A stretch of 64,000 bases of DNA. Origin: an uncultured Eubacteriales bacterium. Its GTDB lineage: Bacteria; Bacillota; Clostridia; Lachnospirales; Lachnospiraceae. Of the stretch, positions 14,866 through 26,937 are shown one piece after another. The position numbers and the translations under genes are program-made. Each line of letters opens with the position of its first letter. The first letter of the stretch is position 1. The notes below the pieces were generated by a model that worked only from the letters and a program-made list of their open reading frames with translations, made no database searches and was not told the origin of the DNA. The DNA is taken from NCBI GenBank assembly GCA_949283695.1, contig CASDTX010000018.1, forward strand, positions 85,675 through 149,674, written 5' to 3'.

Positions 14866-15921
14866 ATGAAGAAGCAGACAGCGGCAGTTCTGGCGGCATT
14901 GGTGATGGGATCCCTTGTGGGATGCAGCTCAGAACTGTCTAATGAATATGTGACAGTGAAACAGTATAAAGGGCTGGAGGTACCCCAGGTATCTGTGACG
15001 GAAGTGACGGACGACCAGGTGGAACAGGTGATTCAGTCCTATCTGGAGGCAGATGCCGTGAAGACGTCGATCACAGACCGGGCGGCGCAGGACGGCGATT
15101 GGGTGAACCTGGATTACACGGGGACTCTGGATGGTGTGGCGTTTGACGGAGGAACGGCCCAGGATCAGGAGATTCAGCTGGGGCAGGCAGGTTTCATCCA
15201 GGCAAGCGGAGACTATCAAGGCTTCGAAGAACAGATTGAAGGACACCGGGCAGGAGAGGAGTTCGATATTACGGTGCAGTTCCCGGAGGATTACTATCCG
15301 GATATGGCCGGGAAGGTGGCGGATTTCCACATCGCGCTGAATGATATCTTCGAGAAAGAGATCCCGGAGCTGACGGACGAGTGGGTGAAGGAGAACAGTG
15401 AGACAGCGGAAACTGCCGATGAATACCGGGCAGAGATCCGCAGTCAGTATGAGGAGCAGGCAGAGGCGTCTTACCGGTCCCAGCTGGAGAGTTATGTGCA
15501 GTCAGCGCTTCTGGATCAGATCGAGGTTAAGAAGTATCCGGAAGATACGGTTGCCAGCGAGAAAGAGCGGCTCACTGCGTATTATGAACAGATCGCGGGC
15601 CTGTATGGCATGGAACTCAAAGAATACATCGAGACTCAGCTTCAGATGACAGAGGACGACTTCGATCAGCAGGCGGAGGAAGCGGTGCAGCAGACGGTGG
15701 CCCTGGACGAAGCCTTCGGGCTGATCGCCGAGAAGCAGGGGCTGGAACCGTCTGAGGAAGAGTATGAAGAGAAGATCGCAGAATACGCAGAACAAGCCGG
15801 AGCGGAAGACGTGGAGGAGTATAAGGAGCAGGTCGGAGAGGACGTGCTTAGGAAAGCGATCCTGCGGGAAATTATAACCGATTACCTGGCCGATGAATGT
15901 GTCCAGGTAGAAGAACAATAA
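14866..15921 (+). CDS. Trigger-factor-like peptidyl-prolyl isomerase lipoprotein
   Basis: 351 residues. The N-terminus is a lipoprotein signal (MKKQTAAVLAALVMGSLVGC, lipid on C20). Residues about 75-165 form an FKBP-type isomerase domain (DYTGTLDGVAFDGG, LGQAGFI, GFEEQIEGHRAGEEF, TVQFPEDY). The rest is a helical, very acidic region like the C-terminal chaperone arm of trigger factor. The ribosome-binding N-domain is absent, so this looks like a trigger factor relocated to the outer face of the membrane, perhaps acting as a foldase similar in role to PrsA. Function is inferred from domains. ATG 14866 has AGAAAGAGGAG upstream. Confidence 0.85.
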   Translation: MKKQTAAVLAALVMGSLVGCSSELSNEYVTVKQYKGLEVPQVSVTEVTDDQVEQVIQSYLEADAVKTSITDRAAQDGDWVNLDYTGTLDGVAFDGGTAQDQEIQLGQAGFIQASGDYQGFEEQIEGHRAGEEFDITVQFPEDYYPDMAGKVADFHIALNDIFEKEIPELTDEWVKENSETAETADEYRAEIRSQYEEQAEASYRSQLESYVQSALLDQIEVKKYPEDTVASEKERLTAYYEQIAGLYGMELKEYIETQLQMTEDDFDQQAEEAVQQTVALDEAFGLIAEKQGLEPSEEEYEEKIAEYAEQAGAEDVEEYKEQVGEDVLRKAILREIITDYLADECVQVEEQ

Positions 15922-15944: not shown

Positions 15945-16817
15945 ATGAAACTGGAGAATGAGAGACTTTGTGTGGAGATCGCGGAGCTGGGGGCAGAAGT
16001 GACGCGGATCTATGACAAGAAGCAGAAGGCAGAACTGCTGTGGGAGGGGGATCCGGCCTATTGGAAACGGCATTCACCGGTTCTCTTTCCGAATGTGGGG
16101 AAGACCTACCACAATACGGTGCGGATCAACGGGACGCAGTATCCGACAGCGCAGCATGGATTTGCCAGAGACAGCGTGTTCAAATGTACCTGCCAAAAGG
16201 AACAGATGGCTTCGTTCCTCCTGGTTTCTAACGAAGAGACGAAGGAAGTCTATCCCTTTGACTTCGAGCTGGTGATTACTTACAGGCTGGAAGGGCCGGC
16301 GCTTCAGGTCGCATGGGAGGTCCGCAATACAGGCAACGAGACGATGTATTTCACCATCGGAGGACATCCGGCGTTCCGCTTCGCAGAGGCAGAAGAGCGG
16401 AAGAGTGATTATATCCTGAAGTTCCCGGGCAAGGAATCTTTGAACTATATCCTGATCAATCAGGCGGAAGAAACCGTAGACACAGAGCATGTTTACACGC
16501 TGGCGCTTGAGGATGGCTGCTGTGCGGTGACTGAGGAGATGTTTGCGAATGATGCGCTCATCTTCGACGGGGGACAGTTTGACGAGGTATGGCTGTGCCG
16601 CAGGGACGGAACCCCCTATGTGGGAATGAAGTGCGCGGGGTTCCCGAACTTCGGGATCTGGTCCGTGAAGAACGCGCCCTTTGTCTGCCTGGAACCGTGG
16701 ATGGGCCGGTGTGATAATATCGGATTTCATAAAGAAATCTCCGAGAAGCCGGATATCAATCAGGCGGCTCCCGGAGAACGGTTTGAAAAGAGTTATACAA
16801 TTCTTGCAGGAAACTGA
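15945..16817 (+). CDS. Aldose 1-epimerase family protein (LacX-like)
   Basis: 290 residues. The ENERLCVEIAELGAEVTRIYDK start, SPVLFPNVGKTYHNT, QHGFARDSVF and the GGHPAFRF motif with its histidine are typical of GalM-fold mutarotase-like proteins, closest to the LacX type. It probably interconverts sugar anomers. ATG 15945 has AAGGAGGAAAG upstream, 23 bases after the lipoprotein gene, so the two could be one transcript, although no functional link is obvious. Confidence 0.88.
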   Translation: MKLENERLCVEIAELGAEVTRIYDKKQKAELLWEGDPAYWKRHSPVLFPNVGKTYHNTVRINGTQYPTAQHGFARDSVFKCTCQKEQMASFLLVSNEETKEVYPFDFELVITYRLEGPALQVAWEVRNTGNETMYFTIGGHPAFRFAEAEERKSDYILKFPGKESLNYILINQAEETVDTEHVYTLALEDGCCAVTEEMFANDALIFDGGQFDEVWLCRRDGTPYVGMKCAGFPNFGIWSVKNAPFVCLEPWMGRCDNIGFHKEISEKPDINQAAPGERFEKSYTILAGN

Positions 16818-16840: not shown

Positions 16841-17452
16841 TCAGGCCATAAGGAAATTCAGCGAGCCGGGCGGATTATCTGTCCCTTTTTCCAGAAGGGA
16901 GATCAGCCCGGCGATTGTGTTTTCTATCTCTTCTTTCGAAGAAGGGATCAAAGTGTTATCCATTTTTACAGTGAGTACAATCAAAACGATTTCGGCCAGA
17001 GCCTCAGGATTGTCGAAAGAGATCTCTCCGTTGGCAATCCCCTGCCGTATGATCTCAGCGAGCACAGGCTTCAGCTCTGTAATCAGGTGGTTGAGGTATT
17101 TCTGATGAAGGAAGGACTCTTCCTGGGCACCCATGCCCTTCCCTTCCTGAAACCTTACATATTCGGAAGAAGAGTTCCGGCAGGCCTGAAAGATCATGGC
17201 CATCCGTGTAAACGGCGGGATGTCGGTCTGCGTGGAAAGTTTCTTCGCGGTGGTGAGCGGCTGCTCATAATTGCGCTCTACCAGCGCGTCAAGGATTGCG
17301 TCCTTGGACGGAAAATAATAATAGATGCTCCCTTTGCCGATGCCGGCGGTCTGCGCGATTTCGCTGACGGAGATAGTCTGGAGCTTCTGGCTCTCCAGAA
17401 GCTTCTGGAGGGAGTCAAGGATGAGATCGTATTTCTGTGATTGTGCTGCCAT
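16841..17452 (-). CDS. TetR-family transcriptional regulator
   Basis: 203 residues. The N-terminal helix-turn-helix is clear: ISVSEIAQTAGIGKGSIYYYFPSKDAILDALV at about 29-60. The remaining helical domain should bind a ligand that is not predictable. It is transcribed away from the SCP2-hydrolase-condensation-ACP-ligase cluster, and the shared intergenic region has three operator-like repeats overlapping the cluster promoter. It is therefore most likely the local repressor, sensing a lipid or acyl compound; that is inference. The gene converges with the epimerase gene, leaving 23 bases between the two stop codons. Confidence 0.92.
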   Translation of the reverse strand: MAAQSQKYDLILDSLQKLLESQKLQTISVSEIAQTAGIGKGSIYYYFPSKDAILDALVERNYEQPLTTAKKLSTQTDIPPFTRMAMIFQACRNSSSEYVRFQEGKGMGAQEESFLHQKYLNHLITELKPVLAEIIRQGIANGEISFDNPEALAEIVLIVLTVKMDNTLIPSSKEEIENTIAGLISLLEKGTDNPPGSLNFLMA

Positions 17453-17625
17453 ACTTAATGCCTCTCTATTGCAAAAACTTCAGGATCAGTTACACGCCGG
17501 CCTCAGCCGGCATATTTGCTGTGCTATTTTACACCTCAGTATAGCATATCAAAATGAAAAGAGCCACTGATCAAATCGCACAAAAAATAAGAAAAATTTT
17601 GCTTTCATTTTGATGATGCTGTAAG

Positions 17626-17702
17626 TTGACCGCCAGTCGAAAAGGTGATAATCTAACAGAAGAATAAATGTGACCGCTGGTCGAAAACGACCGAAGCGGT
17701 CG
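17626..17702. promoter_or_regulatory. Promoter with three TetR-type operator repeats
   Basis: Three related inverted repeats each followed by GAAAA: GACCGCCAGTC at 17628-17638, GACCGCTGGTC at 17672-17682, and CGACCGAAGCGGTCG at 17688-17702. The first overlaps a TTGACC -35 element (17626-17631) with GATAAT at 17647-17652 or TAATCT at 17649. The third ends eight bases before the Shine-Dalgarno of the SCP2 gene. Repeated operators in this position suggest tight repression by the divergent TetR protein. Confidence 0.75.
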
Positions 17703-17717
17703 AAAAAGGAGGACAAC

Positions 17718-18059
17718 ATGACCTACGCAGATATGTTTTCAAAAGTAAAGGGGATGCTGGTAGGAGCTGATGTGAGTGACATTCATGAGCACCTTGCATA
17801 TCAGTTCAATATCACCGGAGAGGCAGAAGGAATCTTCTATGTTGAGGTGAAAGACGGGCAGCTCTTTATTGAACCATATGAATATTTTGACCGCGACGCG
17901 ATGTTTATCTGCAGTGCAGAGACATTATTTAAGATTGCGGCAGGAAAGACAGATCCGATCCTTGCGTTTACGCTTGGAAAGCTGAAAGTAGAAGGAAATA
18001 TTGACAAGGCGCTGAGACTGAAAGAACTGATCAACAGCAAGAAAGACCAGTTTAAATAA
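17718..18059 (+). CDS. SCP2-type sterol/lipid-carrier domain protein
   Basis: 113 residues from ATG 17718 (AAAGGAGGA upstream; 129 residues if an unlikely upstream start is used). It is a single SCP2 domain: YQFNITGEAEGIFYVEVKDGQLFIEP, the strand-helix part MFICSAETLFKIAAGKTDPILAFTLGKLKVEGNIDKALRLKELI. SCP2 domains bind acyl chains or other hydrophobic molecules in a cavity. As the first gene of the cluster it may present or hold the lipid substrate or product. No enzyme activity is expected. Confidence 0.88.
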   Translation: MTYADMFSKVKGMLVGADVSDIHEHLAYQFNITGEAEGIFYVEVKDGQLFIEPYEYFDRDAMFICSAETLFKIAAGKTDPILAFTLGKLKVEGNIDKALRLKELINSKKDQFK

Positions 18060-18125
18060 GAGGCTGACAGGCCATGAAAGGCTGATCGGTCAAAAACGCT
18101 GACAGAATATAAAGCAGGTGAGAAA

Positions 18126-19070
18126 ATGAGCAAATTACTGAAAGGAGCCGCAGCTCTTCTGAGCGCGGCGGCTGCGGCAGAAGTAGCAGGAAGCGCGTAT
18201 TTATACAGAAGGACCATGATCCGTTACAATGCGAAGACAGAGCGGACGATGAAGATGTCCGGGGTGGACTGGGAGAAATACATTCCCATTATGAAAGAGC
18301 GCAGAGAATGGATGATGGAACAGCCTCACGAAGATGTGTGGATTACCTCCCACGACGGACTGAAGCTTCACGGGACTTATTTCAAAGGCAGCGAGGGAAA
18401 TAAAGCGGTGATCTGTTTCCACGGGTATACGAGTGCAGGTCTGAATGACTACGGCAGCCTCTCTGACTACTACCTGAAACATGGATTCCGGATGCTTCTG
18501 ATTGATGAGAGAGCACACGGAGAGAGTGAGGGCGAACATATCGGATTCGGCAATATGGACCGGCTGGACGGAAAGCGGTGGGTAGACTGGATGGTCGAAA
18601 CCGCCGGCGATGATGTGCAGATCCTGCTCCATGGGAACTCTATGGGCGGGGCCACGGTCTGTATGATGAGCGGTCTGGATCTGCCGCCGCAGGTGAAGGG
18701 AATTATCTCTGACTGTGCATTCACTTCTATGAAGGAAGTATTCACTCACGTGCTCCACAGCATGTACCATATCCCGGCATTCCCCATGCTGCAGCTGGCG
18801 GACTGGGCGAACAAGAAGCAGGTGGGATACGGGCTGGATGACTTAAGTTCCGCGCGGGAAGTCAGGAAAGCGAAAGTTCCGTTCCTCTTTATCCACGGGG
18901 ACAAGGACGTTTTCGTTCCGTGCTGGATGACAGAAGAGATCTATAAGAACTGCGCGGCGCCGAAGACGAAGCTGATCGTCCCGGATGCCGGCCACGGGGA
19001 GAGTTATTATAAAGATACAGAAGGTTATGAGAGAGCCATGGATTCATTTATAGGAGGAGTAATACAATGA
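18126..19070 (+). CDS. Membrane-anchored alpha/beta hydrolase
   Basis: 314 residues. A hydrophobic N-terminal helix (residues about 6-28) precedes an alpha/beta hydrolase domain. The nucleophile elbow is HGNSMGG, the acid is in HGDKDVFVP and the histidine in DAGHGESY, so the catalytic triad is complete. CFHGYTS forms the oxyanion-hole region. It belongs to the broad family of serine esterases and thioesterases often found as lysophospholipase-like proteins. Its stop overlaps the start of the next gene (ATGA), which shows tight co-expression with the condensation enzyme. It could release or hydrolyse the acyl product; the substrate is not known. Confidence 0.88.
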   Translation: MSKLLKGAAALLSAAAAAEVAGSAYLYRRTMIRYNAKTERTMKMSGVDWEKYIPIMKERREWMMEQPHEDVWITSHDGLKLHGTYFKGSEGNKAVICFHGYTSAGLNDYGSLSDYYLKHGFRMLLIDERAHGESEGEHIGFGNMDRLDGKRWVDWMVETAGDDVQILLHGNSMGGATVCMMSGLDLPPQVKGIISDCAFTSMKEVFTHVLHSMYHIPAFPMLQLADWANKKQVGYGLDDLSSAREVRKAKVPFLFIHGDKDVFVPCWMTEEIYKNCAAPKTKLIVPDAGHGESYYKDTEGYERAMDSFIGGVIQ

Positions 19071-20473
19071 TGAAGACAAGGAAAGGGTACAAAGTATATC
19101 CATTGACAGTAGCACAGAAATTTCATCTGTTTTATCTGCCGTACTGTCCGACAGCGGCGGTGCTGAACATCGGTACAAGCCTGACGATCGAGGTGGAGAT
19201 CGACTGGGATGTGTTAAAGCAGGCGATCAATAAAGCATACGAGAGATGCGAAGGAATGCGGATCCGGTTTGCCAGGGATAAGGAAGGCAACTGCTATCAG
19301 TATGTGGTGAAGCATGAAGACCAGGATATCGAGTTCGTGGATTTCACGGACAAGACAATGGAAGAAGCAGAGGAGATCATGAAGGAATGGACGAGAGTTC
19401 CGTTCAAACTCGAGGATACGCAGCTTACACGGATCGTCATGATCAGGATGCCGGACGGATTCAGCGGCGTATACTTCCTGGGACATCATATGATCGTGGA
19501 TGCACAGTCCCTGATCGCATTCCTGAAGGATATCATTGAGCTCTACTGTAATGCGAAGTACGAGGGGGTTCCGTATCCGAAGGATATGTGCTCCTATATC
19601 GAGCAGCTTCAGAAGGATCTTGCTTATGAGGCAGGCAGCAAGGCCCAGTTAAGAGATATCGAGTACTTCCAGAAAGAGATTGAGAAAGGCGAGCCGATCT
19701 TCAGCGGCATCACAGGCAGAGGCAGGCTGGAGGCAGCCAGAGAGATGTTTCATAATCCGGAGCTGCGCACCGCGTTCAGCGCGTCAGACGATACGAAATC
19801 AACGCTGGATATCTTCCACCTGGAAGAAGAGCCGACCAGACGTCTGATGAACTTCTGCGAGCAGTATCACGTATCACTGGCATGTCTGCTTCTGATGGGT
19901 CTGAGAACATATCTGCAGAAGATGAACGGGTTCGAAGACGTGTCCATCAACAATGCGATCGCAAGACGTGCAACACTGAAGGAGAAGAAGTCCGGCGGAA
20001 CCAGGATCCATTCGTTCCCGATCCGTACGATCTTCCCGGAAGATATGAAGTTTATCGACGGTGTCTATGCAATCCGTGACAAGCAGAACGAATATTTCCG
20101 CCACGCGAATTATAATCCGACGTCATATTTCGCATACAGATCGAAGATGTATCCGCAGCCCCAGGCCGGACTGACCTATGAGCAGATCTCACTGACGTAT
20201 CAGCCGATGACGCTGAAAGAGAAGGGGCTGGATCAGCTGGGAGACATCCGCTATAAGACGAAATGGTATCCCAACGGATCCTGCGCGCAGGCGATGTATC
20301 TGACAGTCATGCACCGTCCGGAGGACAATGGACTTGACTTTAACTTCGAGCATCAGATCAAGGCAGTGTCCAGAGATGAGCTGGAGTACCTGTATTACTA
20401 TCTGTGCAAGATCATGTTCAAGGGCGCAGAGAATCCGGATCTGACCATCGGTGAGATTATCAAGCTTGTGTAG
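19067..20473 (+). CDS. Stand-alone condensation-domain acyltransferase
   Basis: 468 residues. The hallmark HHMIVDA motif (H140, H141, D145) matches the HHxxxDG active site of NRPS condensation domains, PapA acyltransferases and WS/DGAT enzymes, with alanine instead of the last glycine. The N-terminal YPLTVAQKFHLFY resembles the C1 motif, and LDFNFEHQ takes the place of the DFGW region. Such enzymes form an amide or ester between a carrier-bound acyl group and an amine or alcohol. The next two genes supply a carrier protein and an activating enzyme, so a three-part acylation module is complete. AGGAGG precedes the overlapping start. The acceptor is unknown. Confidence 0.85.
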   Translation: MMKTRKGYKVYPLTVAQKFHLFYLPYCPTAAVLNIGTSLTIEVEIDWDVLKQAINKAYERCEGMRIRFARDKEGNCYQYVVKHEDQDIEFVDFTDKTMEEAEEIMKEWTRVPFKLEDTQLTRIVMIRMPDGFSGVYFLGHHMIVDAQSLIAFLKDIIELYCNAKYEGVPYPKDMCSYIEQLQKDLAYEAGSKAQLRDIEYFQKEIEKGEPIFSGITGRGRLEAAREMFHNPELRTAFSASDDTKSTLDIFHLEEEPTRRLMNFCEQYHVSLACLLLMGLRTYLQKMNGFEDVSINNAIARRATLKEKKSGGTRIHSFPIRTIFPEDMKFIDGVYAIRDKQNEYFRHANYNPTSYFAYRSKMYPQPQAGLTYEQISLTYQPMTLKEKGLDQLGDIRYKTKWYPNGSCAQAMYLTVMHRPEDNGLDFNFEHQIKAVSRDELEYLYYYLCKIMFKGAENPDLTIGEIIKLV

Positions 20474-20608
20474 GTCCGTCATTTGTGAAACGGCGTACCA
20501 GGAAGCCGGGGAAGAGAAGCACGTATCCGGCAAACGTAGAAGATATAGAGCACAGGGATCTGCAGGAGCGGAACCTGATGCAGAATCAGAGAGAGAAGGA
20601 GAACGATC

Positions 20609-20842
20609 ATGTTTGAGAAATTAGTTGAAATTATCTGTAACTATGTGGAAGTAGAACCGGAAAACATTCATCCGGAATCTCGTTTCATGGAGGACCTCGG
20701 ATTCACATCCTTTGACTTCATGAGCATGCTCGGTGAGATCGAGGACGAGTTTGATGTAGAGGTTGAGCAGACAGAGGCTGCCAACATCCGCACCATTCAG
20801 GAAGCTGTTGATTATCTTGAGAAGCTGACTGCCGAGAACTAA
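20609..20842 (+). CDS. Acyl/peptidyl carrier protein
   Basis: 77 residues, the size of a stand-alone ACP. The phosphopantetheine attachment serine is S34 in DLGFTSFDFM, and the preceding helix (LVEIICNYVEVEPENI) and following acidic helix (LGEIEDEFDVEV) are standard. It lies between a condensation enzyme and an AMP-forming ligase and is most likely dedicated to this pathway rather than to fatty-acid synthesis. ATG 20609 has AGAAGGAG upstream; 135 bases separate it from the condensation gene. Confidence 0.93.
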   Translation: MFEKLVEIICNYVEVEPENIHPESRFMEDLGFTSFDFMSMLGEIEDEFDVEVEQTEAANIRTIQEAVDYLEKLTAEN

Positions 20843-20869
20843 GTTTGACGCAGGGAAAGGATGAGAACT

Positions 20870-22378
20870 ATGCTTTGCAGTACGATTCGCGAGATCCTGT
20901 CAAGTACGGAGAAGAAATATGGTCCGGAGGACGCGGTCCGTTATAAAATCAGTAAAAATGAGATTGAATCCAAAACGTATACACAGCTGAAAGAGGACAG
21001 TGAGAGCTTTTCGAATGTTCTGAAGAGTCTGGGCGGGCAGGAGAGTCATATCGCGGTTATCGGAATGACCTCTTATGCGTGGCTTGTGACTTACTTCGGA
21101 ACAGTCAACAGCGGCAGCGTCATCGTGCCGCTGGATGTGAATCTTCCGGCGGAGGATGTATGTGATCTGGTTGACCGGTCAGATTCTACCGTGTTTGTGT
21201 ATGATGAAGTGCGCAAGGATGTGGCGGCTGTTGTCAAGGAGCGCTGCCCCAAGCTGAAACACCTGATTTCCATGCAGCAGGAAGAACATGATGATCATGC
21301 ATATGCCTTCTGGAAACTCATCGGGGAGCATCAGGGAAGCTTCGATTATGACCCGAAGCCGGACCAGCTCTGCACCATCATGTTTACATCCGGAACCACA
21401 GGCAAGAGCAAGGGCGTCATGCTTACCCACAGAAATGTGGCGGAGAACGCGACCTGCCTGGACATGAAGCTTAAGGAGAGAACGGTGATTCTGTCCGTGC
21501 TTCCGATACATCACGCTTACTGTCTGAGTATGGATATTCTGAAAGGAATCTCCCTGGGATCCGTGATCTGTATCAACGATTCCCTGATGCGTGTGGCGAA
21601 GAATATTAAGCTCTTTAAGCCGGAGATGATCCTGATGGTTCCGCTGATGATCGAGACGATGGCGAAGAAGCTGGAGGAGGCGTCCCTTCTCCCGGCGAAG
21701 ATCGTGAAGAACCAGGTCTTCGGAAAACAGCTCCACACGATCTGCAGCGGCGGAGCATATCTTGATCCGGCGTATATCGATCTGTTCAACAAGTATGACA
21801 TCACGATTCTCCAGGGATATGGAATGACAGAATGTGCGCCTGTAATCAGTACGACAGTCGGCTGGAATATCCGCAGGGAGTCTGTGGGACAGCTGATCCC
21901 GAACTGTGAGGCCAAGACCGTGGACGGAGAGCTCTGGGTAAAAGGCAGCAGCGTGATGCAGGGATATTACAAGATGCCGGAAGAGACCGCGGAGACGCTG
22001 GAGGACGGCTGGCTGAAGACCGGTGATCTGGGCTATGTGGATGAGGAAGGCTTTGTCTATCTGACGGGACGTAAGAAGAACCTGATTATCACCAAGAACG
22101 GCGAGAACGTATCTCCGGAGGAGCTGGAGAACGCTCTGAGCACGAATCGCCTGGTGGGAGAAGTGCTTGTGCGCGAACATAACGGTGTGATCGAGGCAGA
22201 GATCTATCCGGATCAGGATTATATGAAGAAGAAACGGATCAAAGACGCGCGGGAGAAGCTGCAGGAAGTGATTGACGAGTATAACCGCACCGCAGCCCCG
22301 CAGAAGAAGATCTACAGTCTGATCGTGCGGGACACAGAGTTCGAGAAGACAACAACAAGGAAGATCAAGAGATTTTAG
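20870..22378 (+). CDS. AMP-forming acyl/amino-acid ligase (adenylation enzyme)
   Basis: 502 residues from ATG 20870 (AAAGG nine bases upstream; ATG 20861 is too close to it). ANL-superfamily core motifs: FTSGTTGKSKGVMLTHRN (A3), GYGMTECAPVI (A5), GELWVKGS (A6/A7), KTGDLGYVDEEGF (A7), TGRKKNLIITKNGENVSPEELE (A8), and the C-terminal catalytic lysine in TTTRKIKRF. The overall look is that of long-chain fatty-acid ligases rather than NRPS amino-acid domains. With an adjacent ACP it is likely to activate an acid as acyl-AMP and load the ACP. The substrate cannot be read by eye. It is followed by a strong terminator that ends the cluster. Confidence 0.9.
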   Translation: MLCSTIREILSSTEKKYGPEDAVRYKISKNEIESKTYTQLKEDSESFSNVLKSLGGQESHIAVIGMTSYAWLVTYFGTVNSGSVIVPLDVNLPAEDVCDLVDRSDSTVFVYDEVRKDVAAVVKERCPKLKHLISMQQEEHDDHAYAFWKLIGEHQGSFDYDPKPDQLCTIMFTSGTTGKSKGVMLTHRNVAENATCLDMKLKERTVILSVLPIHHAYCLSMDILKGISLGSVICINDSLMRVAKNIKLFKPEMILMVPLMIETMAKKLEEASLLPAKIVKNQVFGKQLHTICSGGAYLDPAYIDLFNKYDITILQGYGMTECAPVISTTVGWNIRRESVGQLIPNCEAKTVDGELWVKGSSVMQGYYKMPEETAETLEDGWLKTGDLGYVDEEGFVYLTGRKKNLIITKNGENVSPEELENALSTNRLVGEVLVREHNGVIEAEIYPDQDYMKKKRIKDAREKLQEVIDEYNRTAAPQKKIYSLIVRDTEFEKTTTRKIKRF

Positions 22379-22389
22379 ATTCATGATAC

Positions 22390-22440
22390 AAGGGTATCGC
22401 GATTCATCGTTTTCGATGAATGAGCGATACCCTTATTTTA
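22390..22440 (+). terminator. Rho-independent terminator of the ACP-ligase cluster
   Basis: A long stem: AAGGGTATCGC with GCGATACCCTT, plus an inner CATCG/CGATG stem around a TTTT loop, followed by ATTTTA. It separates the cluster from the convergent LacI-type gene. Confidence 0.85.
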
Positions 22441-22470
22441 TCAGAACATCAATGCGGGCGGCCGGGAAGG

Positions 22471-23490
22471 CTAAAAGAGAGAGACCACGGACTGCCGCGC
22501 CACAATCTCCACATCCATCATAACCTTTGCAGGCTGAGACAGAGTTCCGGTCTGGATCTTCTCCAGAAGAAGCTGGGCAGCCATGCTCGCTTTGGCGGTA
22601 ATATTCTGTGAAACAGAGGATAGCTTGGGATAGGTGTACTGACACAGCGGCAGGTTATCATATCCCATAACGGAGAGATCGACCGGGACCCTGCATCCTC
22701 CGAGCCTGGCGCCTTCCATAATTCCGATGGCGCAGATATCCGCGGTCGTGACTGCCGCAGTGACTCTGCTGTTGGCAGAAGCGAGCGCTTTCCCCGCTGC
22801 GATCCCGCCTTTGTATGAGATGTGATACGGGAAGACCAGCTCCGGGCGGAAGGGGATTCCGCTGTCTTCCAGGGCCTGGCGGTAACCTTCGAAACGGCGC
22901 TGCACCACATCTCCGGTGCTGCAGTCGCCGACGAAAGCGATCTGATTGTGACCGCTGTTGATCATATACTTTGTTGAAAGGTACATCCCTTTTCGGTCGT
23001 CTGAACAGATGTTAATCAGGTCAGGAGACTCAATGCTGCTGTCGAAAATGGCGACCGGGCAGGGCGCGGATGGGAGAAAACTCTCCAGGTAATAATCACA
23101 GTTGGGATACAGGAAGATAATCCCGTCTACACTCCAGTTCTTCAGCAGCGTGGTCAGATCCGTCTGACAGTAGATGGAGCGGACCAGGATATAGTACCCC
23201 TGGGCACGAACCTTCTGCTCAATCGTACCGATCATTGTGCTGATATACGGGTTCTCCAGATAATTTTCCTGGGAGTCGGCTTCCCCCCAGGAGATGATGA
23301 TCCCGATGATATTTGTGGTTTTATTTGTCAGGCTGCGCGCGCTCAGATTCGGCACATACCCATATTCTTCTATAATCGCATTTACATGTTCAATCGTTTT
23401 GGCGGATACCCGGTTGTGTTTGCCGTTAATGACATTCGATACTGTCATCATGCTGACGCCGGCTTTTTCTGCGATATCTTTCAGTGTCAT
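22471..23490 (-). CDS. LacI-family transcriptional regulator
   Basis: 339 residues from ATG 23490. The N-terminal helix-turn-helix is MTLKDIAEKAGVSMMTVSNVINGKHNRVSAKTIEHVNAIIEEYGY, followed by a periplasmic-binding-protein-like sugar domain to the end (MGYDNLPLCQYTYPKLSSV is typical of the family). GTG 23499 and ATG 23502 are alternative starts; GGTGA lies just before 23490. It is divergent from a sugar ABC transporter and GH31 glycosidase, and a perfect LacI-type operator overlaps the start of that operon, so it most probably represses those genes until their sugar appears. Confidence 0.92.
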   Translation of the reverse strand: MTLKDIAEKAGVSMMTVSNVINGKHNRVSAKTIEHVNAIIEEYGYVPNLSARSLTNKTTNIIGIIISWGEADSQENYLENPYISTMIGTIEQKVRAQGYYILVRSIYCQTDLTTLLKNWSVDGIIFLYPNCDYYLESFLPSAPCPVAIFDSSIESPDLINICSDDRKGMYLSTKYMINSGHNQIAFVGDCSTGDVVQRRFEGYRQALEDSGIPFRPELVFPYHISYKGGIAAGKALASANSRVTAAVTTADICAIGIMEGARLGGCRVPVDLSVMGYDNLPLCQYTYPKLSSVSQNITAKASMAAQLLLEKIQTGTLSQPAKVMMDVEIVARQSVVSLF

Positions 23491-23524
23491 ATCGTTCACC
23501 ATTCCTTTAATGTTTAAAATTATA

Positions 23525-23536
23525 GGTTTATAAACC
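23525..23536. promoter_or_regulatory. Palindrome near lacI-type gene start
   Basis: GGTTTATAAACC, a perfect 12-bp palindrome 35 bases upstream of the regulator start. It could be an autoregulatory operator. Confidence 0.4.
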
Positions 23537-23552
23537 ATATAATAAACAGCCT

Positions 23553-23603
23553 TAATAGATTTAAAGTATAAATCTATTATACGTGATTCAGATACAAAAT
23601 CAA
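23553..23603 (-). promoter_or_regulatory. Promoter of the LacI-type gene with overlapping inverted repeat
   Basis: On the minus strand TTGATT (23598-23603), 16-base spacer, TATAAT (23576-23581). An 11-bp inverted repeat (TAATAGATTTA at 23553-23563 and its complement at 23569-23579) overlaps the -10 and start site, which suggests a bound regulator or a leader hairpin. Confidence 0.5.
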
Positions 23604-23684
23604 GTATGTAATCACATATAAAAGTAAAAATACACAAAAAAAACACAGAAAAAATAGGTATAATAACGAAAAAATAGAAAAGCG

Positions 23685-23734
23685 TTGACATTTAGAGCAA
23701 GTGACAGTATATTAATAATAGATTTAGCGCTAAA
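23685..23734 (+). promoter_or_regulatory. Promoter and LacI-type operator of the sugar operon
   Basis: TTGACA at 23685-23690, exactly 17 bases, TATATT at 23708-23713. The perfect palindrome TTTAGCGCTAAA at 23723-23734, with the central CG typical of LacI-family operators, covers the expected transcription start. This arrangement fits repression by the divergent LacI-type protein. Confidence 0.85.
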
Positions 23735-23774
23735 CCAAAAAATGAACGAAGAACTGAAAGGAGAGGTAAAAAGT

Positions 23775-25151
23775 ATGAAAAAGAAGATCATTGCATTGAT
23801 GATGGCATCGGCTATGGCTGTCGGTCTGCTGGCGGGATGTGGTTCAGGCGGATCAGACAGTGAAAAGAAAGAGGTAGAAGTTCCTACAGAGCCTTTCGGA
23901 GATACAGTGAAATACGATCCTTCTGTGGAAATCAATGAGGGGAAAGACATTACAGTGGAGCTCTGGGAGTGGGGCAGCGACGACCTGTTCCAGGAAGTGA
24001 TTGACGGATACACAGCCATTCATCCCAACGTAACGATTAAGCTGGTGAACAACCCGTGGGAAGACTACTGGACCAAGCTTCCGCTTGCACTGGACGGCGC
24101 GAACGGACCGGCAATTTTCAACGTACATAACAGTTATCATGAGAACCTGATCAATTATATGGCTCCTCTGGAGATTCCGATTGAAGATCTTGAAGCGGAC
24201 TTCAACGGCGTAAACGCCCATGTCATCGACGGAGAGGTATACTATATCGACTATGGTATGATGACCGGATCTGTCTATTACAACAAAGACATGTGGGAAG
24301 CTGCAGGCCTTACAGATGAGGATATCCCGAAGACCTGGGACGAGCTGATCGAAGTGGCTAAGAAACTGACGATCAAGGACGGCGATACGCTGATCCAGGC
24401 AGGACTGAACTTCAACGATGATTTCCACCAGAACTATCTTCTCGGCCTGAACTATCAGCTGGGAGAGAATCTGTTCCAGGAAGACGGCAGAACTCCGAAC
24501 GTGAATTCTGAGACCATGGCTGAGATTATGCAGATGCTTGTTGATATGTACAGAACAGAAGGAATCGGTTCTGAGAACTTCGGCGAGAAGTCTTCAGACA
24601 GCTTCGGACAGGGGCAGTCGGCAATGGTCATTCAGTGGGGACATTATTATAATACGCTGAATACAACATGGAGCGGAATCAATTTCGGTGTGTTCGAGAT
24701 CCCCACATTTGACGGTGAGATCCCGTACGCATATAACAGGTACAACGGCGAGTCTACATTCGGAATTAATAAAAACGCGCCGGAAGACCAGCAGGCAGTG
24801 GCACAGGACTTTGTGAAATACTTCCTTGCCAACGATGACGCGCAGATCGCGTTTAACCTGGCAATGAGTACGTTCCCGGCGAAGAAATCTCTGGCAGATA
24901 ATGAAGAGATTCTGGCGAATCCGTCACTGGCAGTTTTGGCAGATCACATTGACCGCTATATCTGGCCAGGTCCCATGCCGGCTACCGTTGAGAATTCCTT
25001 AAAGAAGGCCGGACAGGATGTCTTCTATAATGGAGTAGATATCCAGACCGCGCTTGACGAGGCTCAGGAATCCATCATAAGAGATATGAGGAACAGTTCC
25101 TTTGAGTCGGTAGAAAGTCTTTATATTTACGCATCTGAGAAAGCCAATTAG
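23775..25151 (+). CDS. ABC sugar transporter, substrate-binding lipoprotein
   Basis: 458 residues from ATG 23775 (AAGGAGAGG upstream). Lipoprotein signal MKKKIIALMMASAMAVGLLAGC, lipid on the cysteine of LAGC. The mature part is a family 1 solute-binding protein: ITVELWEWG, VIDGYTAIHPNVTIKLVNNPW, YYIDYGMMTGSVYYNKDMWEAAGL, and WDELIEVAKKLT. It should capture an oligosaccharide outside the cell and pass it to the two permeases downstream. The ligand is not known; the GH31 gene in the same operon suggests an alpha-linked glycoside. No ATPase gene is present, so a shared MsmK/UgpC-type ATPase is probably used. Confidence 0.93.
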   Translation: MKKKIIALMMASAMAVGLLAGCGSGGSDSEKKEVEVPTEPFGDTVKYDPSVEINEGKDITVELWEWGSDDLFQEVIDGYTAIHPNVTIKLVNNPWEDYWTKLPLALDGANGPAIFNVHNSYHENLINYMAPLEIPIEDLEADFNGVNAHVIDGEVYYIDYGMMTGSVYYNKDMWEAAGLTDEDIPKTWDELIEVAKKLTIKDGDTLIQAGLNFNDDFHQNYLLGLNYQLGENLFQEDGRTPNVNSETMAEIMQMLVDMYRTEGIGSENFGEKSSDSFGQGQSAMVIQWGHYYNTLNTTWSGINFGVFEIPTFDGEIPYAYNRYNGESTFGINKNAPEDQQAVAQDFVKYFLANDDAQIAFNLAMSTFPAKKSLADNEEILANPSLAVLADHIDRYIWPGPMPATVENSLKKAGQDVFYNGVDIQTALDEAQESIIRDMRNSSFESVESLYIYASEKAN

Positions 25152-25224
25152 CAGCATGTGCCGGATCCTTCGCGGGATCCGGCGTGCATTCAACCTTCAG
25201 GAATAGAATGGGGAGGAGGATTCT

Positions 25225-26103
25225 ATGTTTAAAAAATCACACCCTCTGCAGAGCAAAAGTGAAATTATTCTCCGGAATATCGTAGTGGTGGCAATGATTA
25301 TATTTTTTACGATATTCCTGATCGTCCCGATCGGGATCGCGTTCGCCGGAAGCTTCCATGACTGGAACCCCTTGAGCGGAACCTACGATTTCCTCGGACT
25401 GGAAAACTATAAAGATGTGTTTACCAGCGGGCTGTTCGGCACATCCATGCTGAATACGCTGATTTTCTCGGTGGTTGTTATTATCTTCCGCGTGGGCCTC
25501 GGTCTTGGAATCGCCTACGCGATCTACTCCACTCTGGTAAAGCATAAAAGCTTCTTCCGTGCAATCTACTACATGCCTGTTGTTACCCCGATGGTGGCGG
25601 TAGCATTTGTATGGAAATTCATGTATAATCCCCAGATCGGTACGATCAATCAGATCTTTGGTCTGGATATCAACTGGCTGATGAATCCGAAGACAGCGCT
25701 TGCAGCAGTTATGGTGATGACCATCTGGAAAGATTTCGGATATGCAGTCGTTATGTATATGGCGGGACTCTATTCCCTTCCGTCAGACGCGCTGGAAGCG
25801 GCGAAGGTAGACGGTGCGAACAGCTGGCAGACATTCCGTTATATCACGCTGCCGCTGCTGAAGCCTATGACGCTGTTTGTTGTGATTACCTCGATCATTT
25901 CCTATATTCAGGCATATGTCCAGATCCTGATCATGACAGAAGGCGGGCCGGGAACGGCGACGTACCTTGCTTCCTATATCATCTATGACGAGGCATTTGT
26001 GAAATATAACTTCGGTTATGCTTCCGCTCTGTCATTTGTATTGTTTGTTATTACGGCGTTCTTCACCTGGTTATCCTTCCGGGTGTCCGGAAATGAAGAG
26101 TAG
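25225..26103 (+). CDS. ABC sugar transporter permease (MalF type)
   Basis: 292 residues with six predicted membrane helices. The coupling EAA loop is present at about residue 190 (ALEAAKVDGANSWQTFRYITLP). ATG 25225 has GGGGAGGAGG upstream. It forms the membrane channel with the next gene product. Confidence 0.93.
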   Translation: MFKKSHPLQSKSEIILRNIVVVAMIIFFTIFLIVPIGIAFAGSFHDWNPLSGTYDFLGLENYKDVFTSGLFGTSMLNTLIFSVVVIIFRVGLGLGIAYAIYSTLVKHKSFFRAIYYMPVVTPMVAVAFVWKFMYNPQIGTINQIFGLDINWLMNPKTALAAVMVMTIWKDFGYAVVMYMAGLYSLPSDALEAAKVDGANSWQTFRYITLPLLKPMTLFVVITSIISYIQAYVQILIMTEGGPGTATYLASYIIYDEAFVKYNFGYASALSFVLFVITAFFTWLSFRVSGNEE

Positions 26104-26115
26104 GAGGGACGGATT

Positions 26116-26937
26116 ATGAGAAGAAGAATAAGTAAAATTGTCCTGAACGTGGTCCTGCTGCTGCTCGGAGTTGTGACCGTATATCCTTTTGTCTGGATGC
26201 TTGCGTCCTCGTTCAAGAAGAACAGTGAGATTATGGCGCTTGAACAGCATCTGCTTCCGCAGATATTTACGGTGGAAAATTATATTAACATGAACGAGCG
26301 GTTCAATTTCATGCGGTTCTTCGCAAACAGTTTGTTTGTGACGCTGGCTGTGACAGTGCTTGTGATCTATACGAGTACGATCTGCGGGTTTGTGCTCAGT
26401 AAGTACCAGTTTAAAGGGCGGAACCTGATTTTCGGGTTCGTGCTTTCCACCATGATGATTCCGTGGTGCGTAACAATTATTCCGAAGTACTCCATGATTC
26501 AGGCGTTTGGGTGGATGGACAGCTATAAAGCGCTGATTATCCCGGCCATGTTCAGCGGGTTTGGGATTTTCATGATGAAACAGCATATCGCGTCGCTTCC
26601 GGATGAAATCCTGGAGGCGGCCAGGATTGACGGGGCGAATGAATTTTTCATTTTCCACAGAATTATTTTCCCCATGGCAAAGAACGGAATCTCCAGTATC
26701 GCGATCTTCCAGTTCCTTTGGGCATGGGAGGACTACCTCTGGCCATACCTGGTGATTAACACGCAGGAAAAGCAGCTTCTGTCAGTGGGACTTAAGATGT
26801 TCAACGGGCAGTATTCTACGGATTACGGCGCTCTGTTCGCAGCGACGGCGATCTCCATCATCCCGGTTCTGCTGATCTATCTGTTCTTCCAGAAACAGTT
26901 CATAGCAGGTATTGCAGCGTCGGCCGTAAAGGGGTAA
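26116..26937 (+). CDS. ABC sugar transporter permease (MalG type)
   Basis: 273 residues with about six membrane helices and the EAA loop ILEAARIDGANEFFIFHRIIFP near residue 170. It starts 12 bases after the first permease and has AGGAGGGACGG upstream. Its ending IAGIAASAVKG is typical of MalG-type subunits. Confidence 0.93.
   Translation: MRRRISKIVLNVVLLLLGVVTVYPFVWMLASSFKKNSEIMALEQHLLPQIFTVENYINMNERFNFMRFFANSLFVTLAVTVLVIYTSTICGFVLSKYQFKGRNLIFGFVLSTMMIPWCVTIIPKYSMIQAFGWMDSYKALIIPAMFSGFGIFMMKQHIASLPDEILEAARIDGANEFFIFHRIIFPMAKNGISSIAIFQFLWAWEDYLWPYLVINTQEKQLLSVGLKMFNGQYSTDYGALFAATAISIIPVLLIYLFFQKQFIAGIAASAVKG

Follow-up and report, generated by a model that had tools for sequence, protein, structure and literature searches.

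Fatty-acid-amide (FAA) clusters of gut Clostridia are reportedly the subject of Chang et al. 2021 (Nat Microbiol 6:792). According to two further papers (PMC13142362, PMC11500036) the products of such clusters are fatty acid amides of small amines, such as N-acyl tryptamines and oleoyl aminovaleric acid (OAA), and the former, a preprint, presents FAA clusters as one known route by which gut bacteria make ligands of human receptors. The OAA cluster of Coprococcus eutactus is described there as three proteins, OaaA, OaaACP and OaaC, which together make OAA in a reconstituted system; the condensation enzyme OaaC (PDB 12KH) is an autoinhibited homodimer. Among 127 FAA condensation domains the preprint gives the motif (D/H)HxxxD, followed by S in 42%, A in 36% and G in 17% (PMC13142362). 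Here we describe a related operon in a 64,000-nucleotide stretch (the window) of contig CASDTX010000018.1, from an uncultured Eubacteriales bacterium of the Lachnospiraceae (GCA_949283695.1), which combines such enzymes with an SCP2-fold lipid-binding protein and a hydrolase.

Kinship with the OAA cluster

Six genes reported in an initial annotation, made from the sequence alone, were confirmed at their places: those of a TetR-family regulator, the SCP2 protein, an alpha/beta hydrolase (ABH), a stand-alone condensation enzyme (C), an acyl carrier protein (ACP) and an AMP-forming ligase (Table 1). All six exceeded the Pfam gathering score, and Pfam and motifs agreed on the SCP2 protein, on C with HHMIVDA, on the ACP with DLGFTS and on the ligase with its core motifs (TSGTTG, GYGMTE, TGD and GRKKNLI), the genes running in one direction.

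Table 1 Features of the operon (positions in the window)
Feature	Position	Strand	Evidence or remark
TetR-family regulator	16841..17452	-	PF00440 (TetR_N) 43.5 bits; divergent from operon
Proposed promoter: TTGACC (-35), 17 nt, TAATCT, TG one base upstream (extended -10)	17626..17654	+	conserved columns, 50 related gaps
Operator 1, GACCGCCAGTC, overlaps -35 and spacer	17628..17638	.	GACYnnnRGTC
Operator 2, GACCGCTGGTC, 44 bp downstream of operator 1	17672..17682	.	GACYnnnRGTC
SCP2-fold lipid-binding protein, 113 aa	17718..18059	+	PF02036 51.5 bits, cut-off 21.3
Alpha/beta hydrolase, N-terminal helix, proposed triad S172/D261/H290	18126..19070	+	Hydrolase_4 57.3 bits, Abhydrolase_1 55.3 bits
Stand-alone condensation enzyme, fatty-acid-amide type, HHMIVDA, 468 aa	19067..20473	+	PF00668 135.5 bits
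Acyl carrier protein, DLGFTS with S34	20609..20842	+	PF00550 (PP-binding) 49.8 bits
AMP-forming acyl ligase, stand-alone adenylation enzyme	20861..22378	+	PF00501 (AMP-binding) 217.2 bits
Intrinsic terminator of operon, T-rich tail	22390..22441	+	fold energy

The nearest solved structure to C was OaaC itself (12kh_A, E 1.2e-110 over residues 9-467), with 40% identity over 455 residues. C is a homologous stand-alone protein within 300-520 residues, it is adjoined by a free-standing adenylation enzyme and a carrier protein as in the OAA cluster, and its motif fits the (D/H)HxxxD plus S/A/G of FAA domains. The kinship extended to the partner proteins: against 11 OaaC-like clusters (L111-L121; L and G numbers are our own, for loci and genomes) the ligase showed 44-47% and the ACP 41-58% identity. 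In a quick tree with SH-aLRT support only, in which the 127 sequences of the preprint were not included, C grouped with OaaC apart from two nonribosomal peptide synthetase (NRPS) C domains. A canonical multidomain NRPS was rejected, since condensation enzyme, adenylation enzyme and carrier protein are here three separate genes and not one chain with thioesterase release.

The FAA clusters of gut Clostridia thus share both enzyme set and bacterial class with this operon, which we consider likely, from these comparisons, to be an N-acyl amide synthase of the same kind in a subtype carrying SCP2. The annotation had known of no described product; the cluster does have described relatives, in the C_FAA kind (OaaC, PDB 12kh). 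Besides its C motif, the window operon differs from the three-protein OAA cluster by the addition of SCP2 and the hydrolase, and neither word occurs in the main text of PMC13142362.

Among the 25 NCBIfam models listed for the ligase the best match was a long-chain-fatty-acid ligase (259.8 bits, cut-off 476), and all 25 scored under their cut-offs. The DLGFTS motif of the ACP was present in 99 of the 109 loci having an ACP match. Of 134 loci searched, 12 had a phosphopantetheinyl transferase (PPTase)-like gene within the cluster or next to it, which supports, without proof, the modification of S34 by phosphopantetheine. This gene lies between ACP and ligase in L171-L174 (the ligase cut in L171), follows the ACP in L123, precedes the hydrolase in L175-L176, stands divergently upstream in L181-L182, lies behind TetR in L061-L062 and, in L133, comes just ahead of SCP2, behind the operators. 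Both of the PPTase motifs that we looked for were found in 7 of the 12, and one motif in L061, L062, L133, L181 and L182. The window's own cluster has no PPTase gene; elsewhere in the source genome there are two PF01648 matches, by eye one Sfp-type and one AcpS PPTase.

Conservation of the operon

The annotation had named the absence of gene co-occurrence in relatives as a refutation test, and the cluster withstood it. All six genes, TetR and SCP2-ABH-C-ACP-ligase, were present in 64 of 80 loci. These 80 were the highest-ranking of 120 retrieved with the window C as query; a sample so chosen favours close relatives, and the gene profiles used were built partly from the same loci. The counting rule gave 65, from which L062 was removed because its ligase-like match is a different upstream gene (26% identity) and the contig ends behind the ACP. 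TetR is on the operon's strand in L071. Of the 15 loci that the rule counted as incomplete, ten are cut off, by the end of the contig or stretch, ahead of the missing gene or within it (L002, L010, L014, L016, L020, L063, L064, L074, L079 and, for the ligase, L038), and L077 and L080 lack SCP2 and keep TetR, operators and remaining genes.

As order recurs through about 100 loci and dN/dS was 0.01-0.09 against four relatives, the arrangement is not a product of chance. These ratios are rough, with dS saturated and the ligase not comparable with L002, and on them the operon genes look to be under purifying selection. The ATGA overlap of the hydrolase and C genes was as annotated (C start 19067, hydrolase stop 19070). 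So was the strong terminator, the fold of 22385-22445 having -30.2 kcal/mol (z -7.6; equalled by 0 of 200 shuffles), although it was absent from the list of a simple terminator scan.

A survey of 299 family genomes, one per genus and partly incomplete, found a C of more than 50% identity in 29, mostly within the gene order of the window, and C matches at 33-37% in 14; in the window's own genus C was present in 41 of 58 genomes. SCP2 stood in the cluster in 27 of the 29 (29 genera, C identity down to 53%), and the other two, G022 and G029, had an SCP2 match on another contig. SCP2, which had been thought unusual in such a cluster, is therefore the rule in one clade of the C_FAA family, and the idea that it is an oddity of one cluster was dropped. 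The 14 family loci with the more distant C had C-ACP-ligase in 12 cases and a hydrolase within 4 kb in 5. Outside the family, L171-L182 had ABH-C-ACP-ligase (the ligase cut in L171), and L183-L187 and L189 had C and ACP, most with a ligase, and no hydrolase.

In the quick tree mentioned above, which holds 82 C sequences, a single group of 44 (SH-aLRT 88, under the 95 mark) took in every one of the 39 SCP2-linked rows. SCP2 thus probably joined a pre-existing hydrolase-C-ACP-ligase set, with a few later losses. A single gain followed by losses is likely but not proven, because L174 and L129, near the base, lack SCP2. The tree has long branches, including L123, L189, L129 and the NRPS outgroup, and leaves out L196 and L197 (two further NRPS C domains, by a length rule) and L188 (no C).

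Some individual loci deserve mention. L046, from a Candidatus Faecalibacterium intestinavium record, has the cluster on a Faecalibacterium-bin contig with no TetR in reach, and its C groups with the window's close relatives; this is either horizontal transfer or a binning error. L123 has the order C-ligase-ACP-PPTase and a very divergent C (38% identity to the window, 28% to OaaC, on a long branch), and may be yet another subtype. L122 and L124 carry OaaC-group C genes with neither ACP nor ligase found within 13 kb, and these enzymes may work with carriers from elsewhere.

The SCP2 protein and the hydrolase

The preferred start of the SCP2 gene is ATG 17718, preceded by AAGGAGG, although the longest reading frame begins at GTG 17670; the 28 SCP2 sequences of an alignment share the initial M, followed in nearly all by TYA or TY. 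It is the single SCP2 match in the source genome (about 79% complete). An AlphaFold2 model (pLDDT 87.8) gave SCP2 folds as its best PDB matches, including 1pz4, the mosquito SCP2 with a bound C16 fatty acid. The best 46 Foldseek matches, at 11-27% identity, were SCP2 proteins or enzymes with an SCP2-like domain; the alkylsulfatases among them are of the latter sort. UbiJ/UbiT are a precedent for an SCP2 protein serving a lipid biosynthesis pathway, that of ubiquinone, and like 1pz4 they share the fold or Pfam family of the window protein. A ubiquinone-type SCP2 was nevertheless rejected, the NCBIfam UbiT score of 20.6 bits being far under the cut-off of 46.9.

The hydrolase carries GNSMG with S172, and S172, D261 and H290, which we take to be the catalytic triad, were invariant in 28 aligned sequences. 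Its model (pLDDT 88.1) has an N-terminal helix at residues 2-31 and matched esterases first. The closest solved relative by both sequence and fold was the Pyrococcus furiosus esterase Pf2001 (5g59; phmmer 6.2e-14, Foldseek 1.5e-17, 24% identity), followed lower down by the thioesterase DcsB and a mycobacterial monoacylglycerol lipase. Of the annotated membrane-anchored hydrolase with intact triad, then, the proposed triad stood. Firm anchoring was downgraded, as a Kyte-Doolittle value of 1.6 over 19 residues was reached at the N-terminus by only 7 of 28 hydrolases and the window protein scored 1.41. The net charge of +3 to +6 in the 15 residues behind the helix suggests, by the positive-inside rule used for membrane topology, that the catalytic domain would face the cytosol.

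A proposed double-operator switch

The divergent TetR gene noted previously is separated from SCP2 by a conserved putative promoter of SCP2 with operators, a layout that fits the TetR control proposed for the operon. In the consensus of 50 aligned gaps the TTGACC and TGnTAATCT columns were strongly conserved, and this promoter position places operator 1 over the -35 box and operator 2 in the early transcript. Two GACYnnnRGTC sites were present in 58 of 71 TetR-SCP2 gaps, one in 10 and none in 3, making 126 sites, where shuffled sequences gave a mean of 1.14; in the two-site loci the sites were 44 bp apart in 50 cases and 43 bp apart in the other 8.

The source genome, at about 79% completeness, contains only two GACYNNNRGTCGAAAA sites, both at the TetR-SCP2 gap. 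Across the 299 family genomes a stringent double-operator pattern occurred in 19, at one place each, and a reversed-pattern control gave 0; as the stringent pattern misses looser sites, 19 is a lower bound. When coordinates were compared by hand all 19 places adjoined SCP2, 18 at 15-106 bp and the remaining one, in G149, at 633 bp, where a PPTase gene intervenes (L133). A window-type C was present in 16 of these genomes, and G031, G106 and G264 had no C match. No other gene under the same operator was found in the source genome (by GACYNNNRGTCGAAAA) or in the 299 family genomes (by the double pattern), searches which looser sites would escape. No operator pair of this form was found in the OaaC-like loci L112, L113 and L116-L118, nor in L171-L173, where TetR is present.

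The best NCBIfam match of TetR was the fatty-acid regulator FadR, at 38.3 bits far under the cut-off of 200. The reading frame directly upstream of the hydrolase resembles, by eye, a MarR-type regulator in L129 and a MerR-type one in L174; in these two relatives, which branch near the base of the clade, the switch may have been replaced.

Proposed pathway

In the pathway that we propose, the ligase would adenylate a free fatty acid and load it onto the phosphopantetheine of the ACP, and C would transfer the acyl chain from this carrier to a small amine that diffuses freely, releasing an N-acyl amide. These steps are proposed because of homology to the reconstituted OaaA/OaaACP/OaaC. SCP2 would most likely bind the fatty acid or the product and carry it from the membrane to the enzymes in the cytosol or back. 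The hydrolase, probably at the inner membrane face, would most likely free acyl chains from esters or clear mis-loaded acyl thioesters. TetR would bind both operators, recognised by their conservation, and shut the operon off until a ligand releases it; a fatty acid or an acyl derivative would be a plausible candidate.

A fuller version can be put forward tentatively. The SCP2 subtype may be a lipid-sensing and lipid-scavenging form of FAA cluster, in which the paired-operator TetR would sense host or dietary lipid, the membrane-side hydrolase would free fatty acid, SCP2 would be a dedicated carrier of fatty acid (or amide) feeding the ligase, and C, whose acceptor pocket would differ from that of OaaC, would make a yet undescribed N-acyl amide.

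Several observations weigh against the amide-synthase pathway proposed first. SCP2 is needless for the chemistry, as loci of related C lack it: the SCP2 profile had no match in any of the 14 family loci whose C has 33-37% identity, or in the 20 loci L171-L190, some of them cut short, and 5 of the 44 rows of the SCP2 clade are without it. SCP2 also occurs in divergent pairs with TetR where there is no C, ACP, hydrolase or full ligase (L201, L207, L211 and L203). The switch too is incomplete in places. Four of the 80 loci (L038, L046, L066 and L076) have no TetR although enough upstream sequence is available to show it, and L131, L132 and L207 have TetR and SCP2 yet no operator pair of this form, so that, with L171-L173, the operator is not universal even within the clade. 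The weakly hydrophobic N-terminal helix makes the membrane location of the hydrolase uncertain. Finally, the active-site motif is HHMIVDA in the window C and DHRLMDS in OaaC, and the acceptor may therefore differ.

Alternative explanations

It is possible, though less likely, that the operon is mainly a fatty-acid-handling or detoxification module, in which TetR senses, SCP2 buffers, the hydrolase and ligase process, and C parks the acyl group on an abundant amine, any effect on the host being incidental. The TetR-SCP2 pairs without conjugation genes suggest that SCP2 may serve a broader lipid role that the conjugation pathway uses. They come from 20 SCP2 stretches of our own choice among the SCP2 matches in family genomes, of which 4 had the pair; the other 16 had SCP2 without an adjoining TetR of this family and without C or hydrolase, L202 showing a weak ACP-like match next to SCP2 and L209 a ligase-like match some kb away. 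The operator pair is kept in L201, L203 and L211, none being seen in L207, and operators and SCP2 also persist in G264. L203 retains a 159-residue ligase fragment and so looks like an operon remnant; the pairs point either to a role of SCP2 outside conjugation or to operon decay. An SCP2 match was present somewhere in 39 of the other 270 family genomes without a window-type C. The fatty acid bound in 1pz4 and the FadR match of TetR, far under its cut-off, would also suit such a module. On the other side, a dedicated stand-alone C with its own ACP would be a costly means of fatty-acid removal, and in sister clusters the same chemistry gives defined signalling amides (PMC13142362). The module and the amide synthase are not exclusive of each other.

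A possible, though again less likely, role for the hydrolase is that of a degrading or editing partner, an amidase or thioesterase which keeps product levels down or removes incorrect acyl-ACP; the operon would then maintain a steady state rather than simply make a product. Its start-stop overlap with C would suit this, as would its staying with C where SCP2 is lacking (12 of the 19 L171-L190 loci where C was found) and the presence of thioesterase DcsB besides esterases among its fold matches. The best match by sequence and fold is nevertheless the esterase 5g59, and in 9 of the 14 family loci with the more distant C (33-37% identity) no hydrolase lies within 4 kb, showing that editing is not generally required.

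That C makes an ester, or acylates a peptide or cell-envelope component rather than a small amine, appears unlikely. Relatives of C domains can form esters, and the active site of the SCP2-linked enzymes does depart from that of OaaC. The residue after the catalytic His, which at a guess touches the acceptor, was Arg in 21 of 21 OaaC-group rows and Met, Leu or Ile in 33 of the 39 SCP2-linked rows (Arg in 4). The OaaC group read DHRxxD throughout (21 of 21), with S next in 20, whereas the SCP2-linked rows all read xHxxxDA (39 of 39) with D in 25, N in 8, H in 3, Q in 2 and S in 1 at the first position, which is thus looser than the D/H given in PMC13142362. The nearest solved relative by far, however, is the amide-forming OaaC, and because C belongs to this C_FAA kind an amide is likelier than an ester. 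By eye, the 45 largest neighbour families (flanks of loci L040 and up, longer than 8 kb) included no acceptor-making gene tied to the cluster and no recurrent decarboxylase or dedicated transporter; what did recur looked like housekeeping genes, transporters of the ABC and MATE types, now on one strand and now on the other, and PPTases. The annotation's lipid conjugate, N-acyl amide or ester, is hence retained on the strength of the ligase, ACP and C, with the ester the less likely half.

That SCP2 and the hydrolase are chance neighbours of a three-gene FAA core is scarcely credible. OaaC-like clusters do manage without SCP2, but 27 of 29 genomes, each from a different genus, have it in the cluster, and the conserved operators sit at its promoter.

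Significance

The preferred reading, an FAA synthase of the SCP2 subtype, concerns a kind of pathway that is already known. In the open-access literature searched, which excludes Chang et al. 2021, where a member may have been tested, no SCP2-type FAA cluster with a double-operator switch was found, nor this subtype distinguished as a fixed unit. If the lipid-scavenging version is true, it would provide the first known case of an SCP2 protein at work in carrier-protein-dependent conjugation, as far as that literature shows. The subtype is widespread in the window's family (29 of 299 genomes, from 299 genera) and has a clear, testable switch. The role of its two extra conserved partners, SCP2 and the hydrolase, would tell the origin of the fatty acid, and knowledge of product and inducer would link a dietary or host lipid to a bacterial signal.

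Neighbouring genes

Upstream of the operon the window has a lipoprotein gene (14866-15921), by eye trigger-factor/FKBP-like, and an aldose-1-epimerase gene (15945-16817). The same pair stands upstream in a number of relatives, a synteny that is probably unrelated to the operon, and a cardiolipin-synthase-like gene upstream in 7 loci likewise looks like plain synteny. Downstream, at 22471-26937, a LacI regulator convergent with the operon is followed by what is by eye a sugar ABC transporter, both probably unrelated.

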